A stretch of DNA of 64,000 nucleotides from positions 1 to 64,000 of the forward strand of contig JAGYKZ010000005.1 of assembly GCA_018401385.1 (NCBI GenBank), read 5' to 3'. The notes below the pieces were generated by a model. That model saw nothing but the letters and a program-made list of their open reading frames with translations, searched no databases and was not told the origin of the DNA. Below are positions 23,524-44,968 of this stretch, piece by piece (position 1 is the first letter of the stretch; the number at the start of each line of letters is the position of its first letter). A program made the translations under genes and the position numbers. The DNA is from Roseicyclus sp. (GTDB lineage: Bacteria; Pseudomonadota; Alphaproteobacteria; Rhodobacterales; Rhodobacteraceae).

Positions 23524-23599
<76 letters not shown>

Positions 23600-37708: not shown

Positions 37709-38731
37709 CTAGCTGCGCACCATGCCCACGATGTCATAAGCCTGTGCCAAAATAGGCGCTGCAATCTCCCGCGCGCGCTCCGCGCCACGGCCAAGGATGT
37801 GGTCAATCTCGGCCTGATCCTGCATCAGGCGCGCCATCTCGGTGGAAATCGGGGCTAGTTTCGCAACGGCCAAATCCGAAAGCGCCATTTTGAAATGACC
37901 AAACAGCGCGCCTTGATGTTGGTCAAGCACGGCTTGCGGTTCAATCTCGGCCAAGGCGGCATAGATATTGATCAGATTGCGCGCCTCGGGCCTTGCGTCC
38001 AATTCCTTTAGACTGTCGGGCAAAGGATCGGGATCTGTTTTGGCCTTGCGGATTTTTTTGGAGATCGCATCGGCATCATCGGTCATGTTGATCCGGCTTG
38101 CATCGGCGGGGTCGGATTTCGACATTTTCTTGGTGCCGTCCTTGAGGCTCATCACCCGTGTTGCGGCGCCTTCGATCACAGGTTCTGCGATTGGGAAGAA
38201 CTCCACCCCGAAATCGTGATTAAACTTGGCGGCAATATCGCGGGTCAGCTCCAAATGCTGTTTTTGATCTTCCCCAACGGGCACATGGGTTGCGTGATAA
38301 ACCAAGATATCCGCCGCCATGAGTGCGGGATAGGCGAATAACCCAAGCGATGCGTTTTCAGCATTCTTGCCTGCTTTGTCCTTCCACTGGGTCATGCGAC
38401 CCATCCAACCCATGCGGGCCACACAATTAAACAACCAGCCAAGCTGCGCGTGTTCTGGCACCTGACTTTGGTTGAAGAGGATGGATTTTTCAGGGTCAAT
38501 CCCCGCTGCAATGAAGCCTGCGCAGAGCTCGCGGGTGTTTTTCTTCAGATCGCTTGGATTTTGCCAAACGGTGATCGCGTGCAGATCAACCATGCAATAG
38601 ATGGTCTGAAATCCGCCTGCCTCTTGCATATCCACAAAGCGCTTCATTGCGCCCAAATAATTTCCAAGGGTCAACCCACCCGAAGGTTGGATGCCCGAGA
38701 AGACGCGCGGTGTGAATTCTGTGTCCGCCAT
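37709..38731 (-). CDS. trpS: Tryptophanyl-tRNA synthetase
   Basis: A 340-residue class I synthetase charging tRNA-Trp. The HIGH-like region is [17 protein letters not shown] and the second signature is [27 protein letters not shown] and [10 protein letters not shown] are also typical. The ATG at 38731 (MADTEF) is preferred over 38791. In many Rhodobacterales trpS follows murJ, but here murJ lies 12 kb away on the other strand. Confidence 0.96.
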
Positions 38732-38846
38732 AATGCGACCTATTGCTTGAGTGATGTTCCGCCCGCAGAAAATCTTGTGATACGCTGGCATTTATGTCGC
38801 GTATCGCTTACCCACGGGGGGCAATAACGTCAACCAAGGTGCTGAT

Positions 38847-39530
38847 ATGGATCAAGAGAATAACAGCCTGTTTAACGACATTCATCCCGTGGTGATGGGA
38901 TTGGCTGTGGTGATCTTCGGGCTTGAGGTGATGTTTCAATTTGCAACCGCTGGGATGCTAGGTGGTGCGGGTGGCTTGGGTTGGCGCATGGCCGCAATCC
39001 GCGATTATGGGGTCTTTCATGAAATTGCCGTTTGGATGGTCTCCAATCGCACCTATCCGTCAAGCGATCTATTCCGCCTTTTCACCTATCCGCTGATCCA
39101 TGGTGGATTCATCCATGCGTTGTTTGTCAGCGTCTTTATTCTAGCCATTGGCAAGATGGTGTCTCAGGTGTTCTCAGGCGCTGCGGTGTTGGTTTTGTTT
39201 TTCGCGGGCTCCATCATTGGCGCATTGGCCTTTGTTGGGTTTCTGAACAGCCCTTATCCACTGATCGGCGGCTATCCTGGGGTCTATGCGTTGATCGGCG
39301 CATTCACCTTTATCTTATGGGCCAATATGGGCCAGACAGGTGACAATCCGATGCGGGCCTTTTCGCTGATCGCAATGCTGTTGGGCATTCAGATCCTGTT
39401 TGCCTTCTTGCAAGGCGATTGGGGCAGCGTTGTGTCTGATTTATCAGGCTTCATTGCAGGGTTTGCCCTGTCATTCATTCTCGTTCCTGGAGGTTGGACC
39501 CTACTGTTGCAACGCCTGCGCAAGCGCTAA
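38847..39530 (+). CDS. Rhomboid-like membrane protein without catalytic dyad
   Basis: A 227-residue protein with six hydrophobic segments and rhomboid features (FRLFTYPLIHGGFIHALFV; glycine-rich helices later). Active rhomboids carry a GxSG serine motif and a histidine in helix 6. Here the first reads GYPG (residues 142-145, Pro144 in place of Ser), and the second reads SDLSGFIAGF, with Asp198 at the histidine position. It is therefore probably a proteolytically inactive rhomboid. AAGG precedes the ATG. It is divergent from trpS and convergent with rpoH. Confidence 0.85.
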   Translation: MDQENNSLFNDIHPVVMGLAVVIFGLEVMFQFATAGMLGGAGGLGWRMAAIRDYGVFHEIAVWMVSNRTYPSSDLFRLFTYPLIHGGFIHALFVSVFILAIGKMVSQVFSGAAVLVLFFAGSIIGALAFVGFLNSPYPLIGGYPGVYALIGAFTFILWANMGQTGDNPMRAFSLIAMLLGIQILFAFLQGDWGSVVSDLSGFIAGFALSFILVPGGWTLLLQRLRKR

Positions 39531-39531
39531 A

Positions 39532-39657
39532 TCAGCGCGCTGCGGCCACCATCAGAGGCTCGATTGGGGATATTGTCACCACGGCTTCAGGCGTATTTGT
39601 GGCCATGGCCAAAACCGCCAAGCCACAAATCGCCAGAAGTGGCGCGTGAAGAATCAA
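39532..39657 (-). CDS. Possible small secreted peptide overlapping the rpoH stop
   Basis: A 41-residue frame from a TTG at 39657 that overlaps the rpoH TGA by three bases (TTGA), with GGGG just upstream. It reads a signal-like hydrophobic stretch (HAPLLAICGLAVLAMA) and a short tail. It ends one base from the convergent rhomboid stop, so it fills the gap exactly. It may be a coupled small gene or chance. Confidence 0.3.
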   Translation of the reverse strand: MILHAPLLAICGLAVLAMATNTPEAVVTISPIEPLMVAAAR

Positions 39658-40535
39658 CCCCCGAGAAATGCTGTCACCTCATGCGATTGTGCTTCAAGGG
39701 ACTTGCGCATTTTGGCGAAGGCTGCGGCCTCAAGTTGACGCACACGTTCTTTGGATAGACCCAGTTCTTCACCCAAAGATTCCAATGTGCGCGGCTCATC
39801 CCGCAATTTGCGTTCGCGCACAATAAACCGCTCCCGCTCGTTCAAAGACGATAAAGCGTTTAACAACCACTCGCGCAATTGCGCGCGGTCGCGGGATTGT
39901 TCCACCAATTCGGCGGCCTGCTCGCTGCTATCTTCAAGTGTGTCGATCCATTCACGCCCCTCATCCTCAACGGATTGGGTCGCATTCAGCGAATAATCGG
40001 ACCCTGCAAGACGGCCTTCCATCATCTCCACATCGTGCAAAGGAACGCCGACCTCGGTGGCGATCATCTGCAACAGCTGATGTTTGTCGAGGGTTTCGCC
40101 CGCCGCCATCGCCTCGCGCTCAAGGCGCGTTTGCACGCGGCGCATATTGAAAAACAGGGATTTCTGGCTGGAGGTCGACCCTGTCCGCACCATGGACCAG
40201 TTGCGCATCACATAATCTTGAATCGAGGCCTTGATCCACCAAACCGCATAGGTCGAAAAACGCACACCACGATCAGGATCGAATTTATCCGCGGCCTTCA
40301 TCAAGCCCAGACCCGCTTCTTGGATCAGGTCATTCATGGGCGCGCCATAACGCTTGAACTTTGCGGCCATCGAAATGGCCAGTCTCATATAGGCCGTCAC
40401 CAGACGATGCAGCGCTTGCTCGTCACGGTGATCGCGCCAGGCATAGGCCAGCTGCAATTCTGTTTCTGCGTCCAACAGTTCCGCTTTCATCGCATGGCGC
40501 GAAAGCGCTTTCTCTCCACCCATGTCCAAAGCCAT
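39654..40535 (-). CDS. rpoH: RNA polymerase sigma-32-type factor, RpoHII group
   Basis: A 293-residue alternative sigma factor. Region 2 is clear (DLIQEAGLGLMKAADKFDPD, FSTYAVWWIKASIQDYVMRN), the RpoH box reads QKSLFFNMRRV, and region 4 ends in SLGEELGLSKERVRQLE. The N-terminus resembles RpoHII of Rhodobacter, not the classical heat-shock RpoHI. RpoHII is induced by RpoE in singlet-oxygen and photooxidative stress. A matching RpoE-type promoter lies 69 bases upstream. Divergent cobU shares this control region. Confidence 0.93.
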   Translation of the reverse strand: MALDMGGEKALSRHAMKAELLDAETELQLAYAWRDHRDEQALHRLVTAYMRLAISMAAKFKRYGAPMNDLIQEAGLGLMKAADKFDPDRGVRFSTYAVWWIKASIQDYVMRNWSMVRTGSTSSQKSLFFNMRRVQTRLEREAMAAGETLDKHQLLQMIATEVGVPLHDVEMMEGRLAGSDYSLNATQSVEDEGREWIDTLEDSSEQAAELVEQSRDRAQLREWLLNALSSLNERERFIVRERKLRDEPRTLESLGEELGLSKERVRQLEAAAFAKMRKSLEAQSHEVTAFLGG

Positions 40536-40603
40536 AACGCACCCCCTGTTGGCGTATCATTCGTGGCAGTGATCTTGTTCCGCGCTTTTTGCGGTTCTAT
40601 TGA

Positions 40604-40632
40604 TGTTACGCGGCGGTCTTGTGATTGGATCA
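40604..40632 (-). promoter_or_regulatory. RpoE-type promoter of rpoH
   Basis: On the minus strand, TGATCC (40627-40632), an 18-base spacer, then TAACA (40604-40608). The known Rhodobacter RpoE/ChrR promoter pattern is TGATCC-N18-TAAGA. Transcription would start near 40597, giving a leader of about 60 bases to rpoH. Confidence 0.6.
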
Positions 40633-40652
40633 CTTTTGGTGAGGAATTTATT

Positions 40653-41174
40653 TTGGCGGGTTTGGCAGGTTTGACATTGGTTTTTGGCGGTGCGGCTTCT
40701 GGCAAGTCGCGCTTTGGCGAGGAATTGGTTCGGCAATCGGGGTTGGCCCCCGTATATCTTGCCACCGCCGAGGCACATGATGACGAGATGGCCGCAAAAA
40801 TAGCCAAGCATAAATCCGCACGCGCGGCGGCGCAGTGGCGCACCCTTGAGGTGCCGATGGATATCACCACGGCCCTTGGCACTGTCTCACGGGGTGAGGC
40901 GGTATTGATAGATTGCGCCACGCTTTGGCTGTCAAATCTGGGTATGGCGGGGGGAGATTGGCGGGCGGAATGGGTCGCGCTTGCGCGCGTCATCGCCGAT
41001 TGCCCCGCGCCCGTTGTGATTATTTCCAACGAGCTTGGGATGGCGTTTCAGCAGATCATCCCCGTCGCGGGCTTTTCGTCAGATCAGGGCGAATTCGCCG
41101 CCGATCTTGTCGTGATGGTTGCCGCAGGTCTGCCTCTGGTGCTTAAAGGGCACTTGCCAAAGGGGCGGGCGTAA
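40653..41174 (+). CDS. cobU: Adenosylcobinamide kinase/guanylyltransferase
   Basis: A 173-residue bifunctional enzyme of late cobalamin assembly, making GDP-cobinamide. The P-loop is VFGGAASGKSRFGE, and YLATAEAHDDEMAAKIAKHK holds the GMP-accepting histidine region. DCATLWLSNL and ISNELGMAFQQIIP follow. The frame is open far upstream, but that part is a shadow of rpoH. The TTG at 40653 with GAGG ahead is the best start. The stop overlaps the following ATG (TAATG). Confidence 0.9.
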   Translation: MAGLAGLTLVFGGAASGKSRFGEELVRQSGLAPVYLATAEAHDDEMAAKIAKHKSARAAAQWRTLEVPMDITTALGTVSRGEAVLIDCATLWLSNLGMAGGDWRAEWVALARVIADCPAPVVIISNELGMAFQQIIPVAGFSSDQGEFAADLVVMVAAGLPLVLKGHLPKGRA

Positions 41175-41749
41175 TGCGCCGCGCCTTTTGGCTGCGCCAT
41201 GGTCCGACCCACACCAAGGTGATCACGGGTTGGCGCGATGTGCCTGCCGATCTGAGTGATGACGTCATTATCGCGCGGCTAAACGCATTTCTTCCATCTC
41301 AGGCGGTGGTGGTTTCCTCTGATCTGATCCGAGCGGTGGCGACTGCGGATGCCCTATCGCACCGCTTGCGCCTGCCCCATGATCCCGATTTGCGCGAGTT
41401 TCATTTTGGCGATTGGGAGGGGCAGGGGTTCGATGCGGTCAGCCAATCCCACCCTGATCTTTCGCGTGCCTTTTGGGAGGGTGGCGCGGATATTTGCCCG
41501 CCCAATGGCGAAAGTTGGGACATGGTCACAGCGCGGGTCAATCGCGCGGCGGATCGCGTGTTGGCGCAGCATCCCGACCAAGATGTGATCTTTACCTGCC
41601 ATTTTGGCGCAATCCTGACGCAAATCGCGCGGCATTCGGGATTAAGCGCATATCAGGCTTATGCCCATACCATTGCGCCGCTGTCGGTCACTGAATTTCA
41701 CGAAACAGACGGCACATGGTCCGTTGTAAGAATCGGATTTTGCCCGTAG
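41174..41749 (+). CDS. cobC: Histidine phosphatase, probably alpha-ribazole phosphatase
   Basis: A 191-residue histidine-phosphatase-superfamily protein. The catalytic motif is LRHGPTHTK with the nucleophile histidine, DLREFHFGDWEGQGFD follows, and FTCHFGAIL contains the second histidine. Its overlap with cobU supports a role in removing phosphate from alpha-ribazole 5'-phosphate in cobalamin assembly. Taken alone the fold could serve other phosphates, so the symbol rests partly on context. Confidence 0.8.
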   Translation: MRRAFWLRHGPTHTKVITGWRDVPADLSDDVIIARLNAFLPSQAVVVSSDLIRAVATADALSHRLRLPHDPDLREFHFGDWEGQGFDAVSQSHPDLSRAFWEGGADICPPNGESWDMVTARVNRAADRVLAQHPDQDVIFTCHFGAILTQIARHSGLSAYQAYAHTIAPLSVTEFHETDGTWSVVRIGFCP

Positions 41750-41782
41750 CCAAGTTATCGTTGGCACATGAAGGGCTGGGGC

Positions 41783-42408
41783 ATGACATATAGGCTTTTG
41801 ATCGGGCAACGCTCCTATTCAAGTTGGTCGCTTCGGGGCTATCTTTGCTTTGCGATGTTCGACATTCCCGTGATCCTTGAAGAGGCGGTGATCTACAGCC
41901 CGGAATTTGCTTCTCAAGTCAGCGCCTTTGGCGGTGGATCAAGCGTGCCTGCCGTGGCCACGGAAGACGGCGTTATCTTGCGCGATAGCCTCTCGATTGC
42001 TTGGCATTTGAGCGAGACCTTCCCGAGAAATGGTCTTTTGCCCCAAGATGTTGCTGCGCGGGCTGAGGCGCAAAACCTCATCGCTGAAATGCATTCAGGC
42101 TTTGGTGCCTTACGCAGTGCGTGCCCCATGAATCTGCGCACGGCTTGGATCGGTTTCGTCCCAAGTGACGCGGTTATGGCCGATCTTTTGCGCTTAGAGG
42201 CACGCTTGGGCGCGGCGCTTATCAAATCGGGCGGGCCACTCCTATTTGGCGCCCCCACATTGGCGGATGCATTTTATGCCCCTGTCGCCATCCGTATCAG
42301 CGCTATGGTCTGCCAGTCAGTGCGCGTCGCGGCCTATGTCAACGCGATCTCGCGTTGCCAGTGATCCAAAAATTGGCGCGCGGCAGAAGTCTGCACGAGG
42401 ATGAATAA
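41783..42408 (+). pseudogene. Glutathione S-transferase family, C-terminus frameshifted
   Basis: The N-terminal thioredoxin-like domain is good (MTYRLLIGQRSYSSWSLRGY, then SSVPAVATEDGVILRDSLSI) and the helical domain reads to about residue 170 (LFGAPTLADAFYAPVAIRI). Then the frame changes near 42300 (SAYGLPVS in +1) and again before the end; the natural end is probably LHEDE with TAA at 42406-42408. The uncorrected frame would stop at 42364. Substrate unknown. The upstream ATG at 41768 is an alternative start. Confidence 0.7.
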
Positions 42409-42510
42409 GAAGTTGCGGTTTACGACATGGCCCACTTGAGCGGCGGCCCTTCCCGCAGCAGGTTTGAGTTAACCTCTCGCTAACCATGTGCCGCCTATGC
42501 TGCGGGGCCC

Positions 42511-44027
42511 ATGTCGACGCCCAACCCATCTTCGCTTGCCACCATCCACACCGTCAGCTTTGAGGGGTTGAGGCGTGCTGAGGGTGCAATGTGCGGTCAC
42601 CTGGTGGGCAGCCCAAATTCATCATTGCTGGTTTGGGTCTGACAAAGCCGTGACCGAGGCGAAGGAGCCGTGCGCACCGCATTGACCCATATGGCCATCG
42701 CCCTGCCTGCGCGGCGTATCACGATTAACTTCGCCCCGCAGATCATCCAAAGGAGGCGCATGAGACCTGCCCATCGCCTTGGCGCCGTGGCGCCCTCGGC
42801 GGATCCCAAAAGACCGCAGGAGTGAGGCTTGGTCTGGGGCGGTTGCCGCCTATGGCAGGCTTCGCCCGCCGAAGGGGCTCACAGCGCGCCCCGCGGCGGG
42901 CGAAGATGGCGGGTTCTTGCTGCCCTGCCGCGTGCGGGTGGAGGGCGGCATGTGGTTGCGTAACTGCCGTGTTCGCTGCGCGTGATCTGGCTCAGATGAT
43001 TGCGCATCTGAATGACAAACGCCCGTTATTGCCCGCTGAACCCGGCGAGGTGCGCGGGGTGACTATGCCACCTGCTTTCTGAGGTGCGCGGACAGGAACG
43101 GGCCAAAGGTGGCGCTTACTGCAGCGGGCCGCCACCATGTGTTGATGATCGGCCCGCCTGAGTTCTGGGAAGTAAGTCCATGGCGGCTGGCTGATGCCAG
43201 CCAATCCGCTATGTTCAACCCCTGCGGAGGCGTTGGAAACCTCGATGATTCATTCCATTGCGGGGCTTTTGGATGAGGGTGGGATTTCCCGTGATCGCCC
43301 CTTTCGCGCGCCCCATCACACGGCCTCCATGGCGGCGCTTGTGGGCGGGGGGCGTCATGCCAAACCGGGCGAGATCAGTTTGGCGCATAATGGCGTGCTG
43401 TTCTTGGATGAATTTCCCGAATATCCGCGCCCCGTCTTGGAAACGCTGCGCCAACCGATTGAGACGGGTGATGTCCATGTGGCCCGCGCCAATGCCCATG
43501 TCAGCTACCCGTGTAGGTTCCTGTTGATCGCGGCTGCAAACCCTTGTCGCTGTGGTCAGCTCTATGATGCCAATGCCGCCTGCGCGCGGGCACCGAATTG
43601 CGGCGCGGATTACATGGGTCGCATCTCTGGTCCATTGATGGACCGCTTCGATATTCGATTGGAGGTTTCGGCCGTGGCCTTTAGCGACCTTGAGCGCCCG
43701 CCTGCGGGGGACGCATCCGCTGTCATTGCCGCGCGGGTGGCTGCTGCGCGCGCCCGTCAAAGCGCGCGGTTCGAGGTGATGGGGGTGGAGGCACGGGTTA
43801 ACGCGGATGCCACAGGCAAATTGTTGGAAGATATCGCGGAGATCACCCCCGCTGCGCGCGCCCTGATGACACGGGCGGCGGAGCGATTTGGCCTTTCGGC
43901 GCGTGGCTATCACCGGGTGCTGCGCCTTGGCCGCACCATTGCCGATTTGGCCAATTCCGACCGAACCGAAGAGGCACACATCCTTGAGGCGGTCGGCTAT
44001 CGCATCACGCAAAGCCGCGAAGGTTAG
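42511..44027 (+). pseudogene. comM: YifB/ComM-family magnesium-chelatase-like ATPase, N-terminal half scrambled
   Basis: ComM is a hexameric helicase aiding integration of transforming DNA. The C-terminal 275 residues are intact (SIAGLLDEGGISRDRPFRAP, NGVLFLDEFPEY Walker B, AAANPCRCG, LMDRFDIRLEV, LSARGYHRVLRLGRTIADL). The first 690 bases contain only pieces (TIHTVSFEG, ALTHMAIALPARRITINFAP) in changing frames. The Walker A region (about 43150-43175) is altered, including a tandem AAGTAAGT. The end overlaps gshB by four bases. Confidence 0.85.
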
Positions 44028-44968
44028 GCACCGCGCCGCGCTTCAATGGCCTGCCAGATGATTTCCGCGACATTTACCCCGTCAAAGCGCTCCAACTCTT
44101 GGATGCCCGTGGGGGAGGTCACATTAATCTCGGTCAGGTAATCCCCGATCACATCAATGCCCACGAAAATTTGGCCCTTCTCGCGCAGAAGCGGACCGAT
44201 TTTGGCGCAGATGTCATGTTCGCGCGCGGTCAACCCGATTTTCTCGGCGCGTCCGCCAACGTGCATATTTGATCTTGTTTCCCCTTCGGCGGGCACACGG
44301 TTGATCGCCCCGACAGCTTCGCCGTCAATCAGGATGATCCGTTTGTCCCCTGCCGTCACATCAGGCAAGAATTTTTGCGCAATCAACGGCTCGCGGCTCA
44401 TGGATGTGAACATTTCATGCAGCGAATTGAGGTTGCGATCCGAAGGCTCCAAGCGGAACACGCCCGCGCCGCCATTGCCATAAAGCGGTTTGATGATGAT
44501 ATCGCCATGGCGCGCCCGAAAGTCGCGCAAAGCGCGGATGTCGCGGGCAATCATCGTGGGCGGGATAAGATCAGGAAAATCCAGAACCAATAGTTTTTCA
44601 GGGTAGTTGCGAACCCAAAACGGATCATTCACGATCAACGTCTTGGGATGAATCCGCTCCAACAAATGCGTGGTGGTGATGTAGCCCATGTCAAAAGGCG
44701 GGTCTTGGCGCAAAAGCACCACATCCCAATCGCCAAGGTCGATGGTTTGCTCCGCCCCGAGGGTGAAATGGTTGCCCTTTTCACGGCGCAAGGTCAGCGG
44801 CCAGCCGCGTGCGCAGACACGCCCCTCGTCCAAAAAAAGGCGATCTGGGGTGTAGTAAAACAGCTCATGACCGCGTGCCTGCGCCTCTAGCCCAACACGA
44901 AAGGTGCTGTCTGCGTCAATATTGATCGGCCCGATAGGGTCCATCTGAATTGCGACTTTCAGTGCCAT
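44024..44968 (-). CDS. gshB: Glutathione synthetase
   Basis: A 314-residue ATP-grasp ligase joining gamma-glutamylcysteine and glycine. [19 protein letters not shown] is the conserved N-terminus. [14 protein letters not shown] (ATP loop), [16 protein letters not shown], and [21 protein letters not shown] (metal-binding) are all present. Length is normal. It is convergent with comM. It runs about 80 bases after yraN on the same strand, as in many alphaproteobacteria. Confidence 0.95.

Follow-up and report, generated by a model that had tools for sequence, protein, structure and literature searches.

The gene at 38847-39530 of the window (the whole stretch of 64,000 nucleotides of Roseicyclus sp. 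DNA analysed here) encodes a rhomboid that lacks the serine, the histidine and the oxyanion asparagine of rhomboid proteases. With a probability of roughly 60%, it represents a dedicated bacterial rhomboid pseudoprotease that arose by one ancestral loss of catalysis, has been kept under selection and would act as a non-cleaving binder of transmembrane clients. It is a membrane protein of marine bacteria that keeps the shape of an enzyme cutting within the membrane. The gene and its upstream surroundings are as follows:

37709-38731, minus strand: trpS (tryptophanyl-tRNA synthetase), the divergent neighbour, with Pfam tRNA-synt_1b
38732-38846, no strand: intergenic region of 115 bases between trpS and the pseudorhomboid gene
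38847-39530, plus strand: pseudorhomboid gene, 227 amino acids from ATG to TAA, identified by open reading frame call, Pfam and structure model

The encoded protein is a member of the rhomboid superfamily by both sequence profile and six-helix fold. Rhomboid (PF01694) is the sole Pfam family above cut-off (E-value 1.8e-16; 61.1 bits against a cut-off of 22.6). No NCBIfam model reached its cut-off in a profile scan of this protein, and Rhombosortase (TIGR03902) scored 14.7 bits, below its curated cut-off of 84. Structure prediction, one of the checks proposed in the initial annotation, gave an AlphaFold2 model built from 58 sequences with a mean pLDDT of 88.7 and a pTM of 0.86. Its six helices, taken as transmembrane (TM), span residues 14-34, 88-106, 111-132, 143-164, 170-189 and 193-212; the N-terminus before TM1 comprises 13 residues and loop 1 comprises 53. 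Significant Foldseek matches of the model are rhomboids only (25 at E<=0.001), with a TM-score to GlpG of up to 0.75 by target length. In VIA-align, iRhom1 (Z-score 18.8) and GlpG (up to 18.1) are tied, and derlin-bearing entries score 8.1-10.3, a range that the tool calls uncertain for helical bundles; the absence of a family from the VIA-align list was not counted as evidence. The protein gave no PHROG match at E<=0.01 that would indicate a phage origin, and Rfam matched nothing in the window but a tRNA at 23524-23596.

The catalytic positions were assigned from profile alignments to GlpG of Haemophilus influenzae and to close dyad-bearing relatives. The Asn in TM2 of rhomboids has the oxyanion role. 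The corresponding codons are:

39126-39128, plus strand: Val94, at the position of the oxyanion Asn
39273-39278, plus strand: Tyr143-Pro144, at the positions of the catalytic Ser and the next Gly (GGYP versus GASG)
39438-39440, plus strand: Asp198, at the position of the catalytic His

The three counterparts in rhomboids are numbered Ser201, His254 and Asn154 (PMC2989971). The claim of a rhomboid fold without a Ser/His dyad thus holds, with Tyr143 and Asp198 at the two positions. The initial annotation had read GYPG in place of GxSG; the motif is indeed lost but the register differs, because Tyr143 rather than Pro144 stands at the Ser position and G141-G142-Y143-P144 replaces G-A-S-G. It had placed Asp198 correctly at the helix-6 His position, and the loss of the oxyanion Asn (Val94) was absent from it. 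As judged from the sequence, the features of an active rhomboid protease (a GxSx Ser in TM4, a His in TM6 and an Asn in TM2) are missing from this protein.

The loss is fixed among the relatives whose catalytic positions were read. The three positions were read in 138 distinct sequences scoring above 120 bits, including that of the window and with identical sequences collapsed. The Ser position holds Y in 73, F in 58, W in 2, T in 2 and H, M and S in one each, so that 133 of the 138 are aromatic (Y/F/W), and Pro follows directly in 134. At the His position, for which 137 sequences have a letter, D occurs in 113, E in 20, N in 3 and Q in 1 (D/E in 133), and His in none; Asn is found at the oxyanion position in 0 of the 138. 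The highest-scoring dyad-bearing sequence reaches 108.9 bits, and all 16 dyad-bearing sisters have the Ser, the next Gly, the His and the oxyanion Asn. The dyad loss is more than chance. One relative with an in-frame stop (L028) was left out of alignment A1, and alignment A2 comprises the window sequence and 57 of the 80 named loci. Ser followed by Pro is kept in L126 (1462-2154, above 120 bits) and in the more distant L134 (1477-2184), which at 90 bits lies below the 120-bit cut and outside the 138; His is replaced by D in the former and N in the latter, and both may be transitional forms or reversions.

These two sequences bear on the reading that proteolysis persists through a different nucleophile or a displaced dyad. 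The initial annotation named an intact Ser/His dyad in shifted alignment as what would overturn its claim, and none was found among the relatives. Its nearest candidates are Ser209, conserved in 123 of 137 sequences, and His85, conserved in 120 of 138. In the model, Ser209 sits close to where TM6 ends, and His85 immediately precedes TM2. By rhomboid topology, the end of TM6 and the start of TM2 are on opposite membrane faces, and the two residues are accordingly predicted to lie near opposite faces. Although the Ser of L126 and L134 and the conservation of Ser209 and His85 could favour this reading, the His is missing from both sequences and the oxyanion Asn is gone. In addition, insertion of a Pro into the serine motif, there before the Ser, abolished or strongly reduced the activity of three rhomboids, bacterial AarA included (PMC3149277). 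Residual proteolysis is thus very improbable.

The dyad-less form is distributed across most of one family. In a first search, 35 of 61 genomes had a match and the close matches aligned over nearly their whole length; a relative is encoded in at least 590 stretches, and the named loci include Rhodovulum, Ruegeria, Phaeobacter, Shimia, Litoreibacter, Salipiger and Roseicyclus. Within Rhodobacteraceae, 289 of 296 genomes (a sample at least 95% complete, the window's own genome excepted) match the profile, 268 of them at E<=1e-40 and 21 more weakly. In a class-wide sample of 290 genomes, 167 have no match, five of the matches listed come from the family, and the best match outside the family scores 68 bits. 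The 25 outside-family matches that were read (L094-L118) have Ser in 25, Asn in 25 and His in 24. The exception, L118 (1384-2175) from another family of the class, has the Ser but apparently lacks the His in the alignment, possibly an isolated loss of the dyad.

The initial annotation's impression of a clean, well conserved gene is borne out by an open reading frame that runs exactly from 38847 to 39530, by the 268 family genomes matching at E<=1e-40 and by a dN/dS of about 0.05. Six pairs were compared within the window's genus: five give a dN/dS of 0.05-0.06, and the closest one, with a dS of only 0.06, gives 0.19. For comparison, the canonical rhomboid and TrpS of the same genomes yield 0.05-0.11 and 0.02-0.03, respectively. 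These ratios support strong purifying selection on the dyad-less form. A decaying gene would explain two isolated cases: L028 (1501-2190, genome G035) has one in-frame TGA, either a real loss or a sequence error, and genome G168 retains a mere short rhomboid remnant beside trpS (L289, 1161-1334), showing that loss of the gene can occur. Across the whole clade, decay was rejected as contradicted by the dN/dS, and it is hardly tenable given also the 268 strong matches and the positions conserved specifically in this clade.

Those positions emerge from a comparison of 41 dyad-less with 16 dyad-bearing sequences, and two further stretches of the gene belong to the list of features:

39075-39077, plus strand: Arg77, a clade-specific constraint aligned with the Arg of the GlpG Trp-Arg pair in loop 1
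39486-39527, plus strand: C-terminal tail Pro214-Arg227 (PGG...RLRKR), conserved solely in the dyad-less clade

Arg77 occurs in 136 of the 138 sequences and in 38 of 41 dyad-less members versus none of the 16 sisters, 11 of which have M. Tyr81 is present in 40 of 41 versus 6 of 16, Gln182 in 32 of 41 where all 16 dyad-bearing sequences have Asn, and Phe206 in 38 of 41. Ser209 (32 of 41 versus 0 of 16) is new to the clade. A PG-x...R tail ends 129 of 134 distinct dyad-less proteins versus 0 of 17 dyad-bearing relatives, and the stop-truncated L028 is one of the five misses; by rhomboid topology, this tail would be cytosolic. Older features persist as well: the TM6 GxxxG (Gly201 in 94% and Gly205 in 100% of the 138) and, in most members, the TM2 histidines (the aforementioned His85, and His90 in 101 of 138).

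Some of these residues could instead speak for a different membrane function, such as a proton or ion relay or ligand binding through Glu27, Gln182 and Asp/Glu198. Glu27 is invariant in the 138 sequences, and Asp/Glu198 and Gln182 replace the sisters' His and Asn. However, Glu27 is ancestral, since it is common to all 16 dyad-bearing sisters, and the rhomboid-only Foldseek matches offer no other fold; a gain of this kind is distinctly unlikely.

The gene also has a characteristic location. Neighbour names rest on Pfam, and adjacency was not counted from the gene-order listing, since gene calling there had failed to pick up the rhomboid at some loci. Of 80 named loci, 79 have a divergent trpS no more than 400 bases away (the exception, L223, covers just 52 bases upstream), as do 40 of 40 further wide loci, some from the same genomes. 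A convergent murJ lies within 400 bases in 61 of the 80 and 27 of the 40. Among 16 dyad-bearing genes that were classified, seven are divergent from trpS, six of these also being convergent with murJ; one (L143) is beside murJ only and eight have neither gene within 1.5 kb. Outside the family, none of the 28 trpS loci returned among 57 genomes searched has a rhomboid within 1.5 kb upstream, and 22 have murJ there. Seven genomes (G205, G140, G018, G295, G327, G114 and G145) carry a dyad-bearing copy elsewhere and no rhomboid in the stretch covered upstream of trpS.

In the window, both immediate neighbours, trpS and a sigma-factor gene, are on the opposite strand, and an operon partner was therefore dismissed. 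A sigma-70-like site scan listed none in 38732-38846, which is evidence neither for nor against a shared divergent promoter. In the window's genus, the side of the locus on which most relatives carry murJ and glnD is taken up by other genes, among them those for a sigma-70 family protein and a histidine phosphatase (39654-44968 in the window). The window also has a Mg-chelatase/ComM-type gene (42365-44027) with Pfam ChlI and its C-terminal domain on 43194-44024. An open N-terminal half seems to be absent from it; by eye, similar pieces lie upstream in different frames, broken by stops.

The recurrent murJ raises the possibility that the protein serves a single client encoded next to it, most likely the lipid II flippase MurJ. 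Besides the 61 of 80 loci, murJ remains the neighbour in two divergent members, L124 and L134, which have no trpS within 1.5 kb upstream. However, the window's genus keeps the gene with trpS and has no murJ in the flank covered, and the gene is antisense to murJ, which precludes a common operon. A MurJ-specific role is quite improbable.

The phylogeny points to one origin. In a tree built from 80 rhomboids, one branch (support 100/98) has the dyad-less sequences (40 relatives and that of the window) on one side. Sixteen dyad-bearing sequences make up the sister clade (98/95), and both clades together have 98/97. When the tree was rebuilt without the catalytic columns and with six more rows (nine loci were added, of which L342, L343 and L345 gave no usable row), the dyad-less clade keeps 98/96 and the sister clade of 19 rows is weaker at 93/73. 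In both trees, the canonical rhomboid of the window's genome is far from the dyad-less clade. L143 falls outside the sister clade in both and was not counted in it, though it supplies one of the 17 dyad-bearing tails; this GVSG- and His-bearing rhomboid beside murJ (1300-1980, genome G081) either occupied the place independently or is a rapidly evolving ortholog.

Because the dyad-less sequences form one clade, and its dyad-bearing sister has seven members at the same place divergent from trpS, catalysis was most likely lost once by a protease, and probably in place. In the simplest history that the sequences suggest, the gene was inserted between murJ and trpS in antisense orientation and then lost catalysis once. 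At least five genomes (G064, G179, G013, G022 and G010) carry both the dyad-less and the dyad-bearing form, so an old duplication, or a transfer, is a possible alternative history; for the same reason, the idea that the two forms nearly exclude each other was dropped. In a TrpS tree, carriers of the dyad-less form are not one group and the label needs 10 changes, at least four of them forced by starred branches, which implies that losses or transfers are needed too. This tree is poorly resolved, has no outgroup, does not contain L124 and L275 (no TrpS) and is a poor stand-in for a species tree. Rooting the history with TrpS alone was abandoned on account of its poor resolution, its lack of an outgroup and the 10 changes, and the dyad-bearing lineages are not claimed to be basal.

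The cell need not have lost rhomboid proteolysis with this gene. Of 25 family genomes checked, 21 bear the dyad-less form and all 21 have a further rhomboid above cut-off. The canonical rhomboid of the window's genome (G000:C137) has GASG and the His. The dyad-less protein might thus regulate the cell's canonical protease, either as a competitor for substrate helices or as part of a mixed complex, much as iRhoms inhibit rhomboid-dependent signalling (PMC3149277). However, the co-occurrence says little given that rhomboids are found in 34 of 41 genomes checked, including all 14 control genomes, and the window's genome has the two genes on separate contigs. Such regulation is unlikely.

The preferred reading, a pseudoprotease that binds clients, can be put as a sequence of steps. 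A protease-type rhomboid gene most likely stood at the trpS/murJ place in an ancestral genome. Within a single lineage, Ser then gave way to Y/F followed by P, His to D/E and the oxyanion Asn to V/A. The altered form was afterwards kept by strong purifying selection across most of the family, with new constraints at Arg77, Tyr81, Gln182, Phe206 and Ser209 and a new basic C-terminal tail. With loop 1 and the lateral gate of rhomboids, the protein may still bind transmembrane helices yet not cut them; the aromatic-Pro pair and the acidic residue would remodel the former active site for binding, and the tail may serve as a docking place for a cytosolic partner. Bound clients would most likely be handed to another membrane protease, with FtsH as the leading candidate, or unassembled subunits would be shielded.

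By analogy with known rhomboids, a non-cleaving client-binding role of some kind is probable, and a role as a chaperone or in quality control is plausible. GlpG and Rhom7 act on orphan membrane subunits (PMC7232013), and catalytically dead YqgP of Bacillus subtilis is an FtsH adaptor that presents MgtE to FtsH (PMC7231995). The window's own genome has an FtsH-type M41 domain. Handover to FtsH is, however, a tentative proposal: the YqgP adaptor role requires an unobstructed active site and a cytosolic N-terminal domain (PMC7231995), whereas the Tyr or Phe of the dyad-less protein may fill the former active site and its N-terminus is short, at 13 residues, which argues against a YqgP-like role. 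A more speculative and rather doubtful version is that the family has its own derlin-like protein, which would pass clients through the new tail to FtsH as a bacterial parallel of ERAD, with protease and pseudoprotease forms both alive at one locus.

Rhomboid pseudoproteases are an already known kind, studied mainly in animals and yeast, and a 2025 review takes conserved active and inactive members as a sign that the last universal ancestor had two rhomboid copies (PMC12615303). The open-licence literature, covered mostly at abstract level, yielded no account of a rhomboid family in these bacteria that is dyad-less throughout. The bacterial adaptor idea rests on YqgP, itself an active protease, so that its two roles are hard to separate. 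Related bacteria with both states at the same locus, and some genomes with both, allow direct swaps bearing on the change from protease to pseudoprotease and on the role of the dead form. The Pfam rhomboid label, moreover, would suggest a serine protease in genomes where one is very unlikely.

Compared with GlpG and the rhomboid proteases, the family shares the fold, the six helices, the TM2 histidines in most members and the TM6 GxxxG, with Glu27 common to its dyad-bearing sisters, but it lacks the Ser, the His and the oxyanion Asn and has GxYP and a conserved C-terminal tail. The likeness to iRhoms and derlins drawn in the initial annotation is fair for the fold (Z 18.8 for iRhom1 and 8.1-10.3 for derlins) and fails for membership, as iRhom hallmarks are absent and half of the derlin WR pair is present. 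Like iRhoms (RHBDF1/2), its top structural match tied with GlpG, the protein is a pseudoprotease of rhomboid descent, and its serine motif has acquired a Pro. The iRhom Pro, however, precedes the Ser position (GPx), whereas here Gly142 comes before and Pro144 after it (GxYP), and the long cytosolic N-terminus and large loop-1 homology domain of iRhoms are both missing.

With derlins (Derlin-1, Der1 and Dfm1), it shares a catalytically dead rhomboid fold, the retained TM6 GxxxG and the presence of a conserved C-terminal tail, the SHP tail of Dfm1 binding Cdc48 (PMC8641752). A Cdc48/p97-binding SHP tail is also a feature of Derlin-1. In Dfm1, WR is needed for client binding, and WR and GxxxG are both needed for retrotranslocation (PMC8641752). 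The structural match to derlins is lower, and the protein has Phe76-Arg77 in place of WR, with only the Arg conserved. YqgP resembles the role proposed here in being a bacterial rhomboid with a protease-independent FtsH adaptor function (PMC7231995); it differs in keeping the catalytic Ser and a cytosolic N-terminal domain, whereas the protein of the window has lost the dyad and has an N-terminus of 13 residues.
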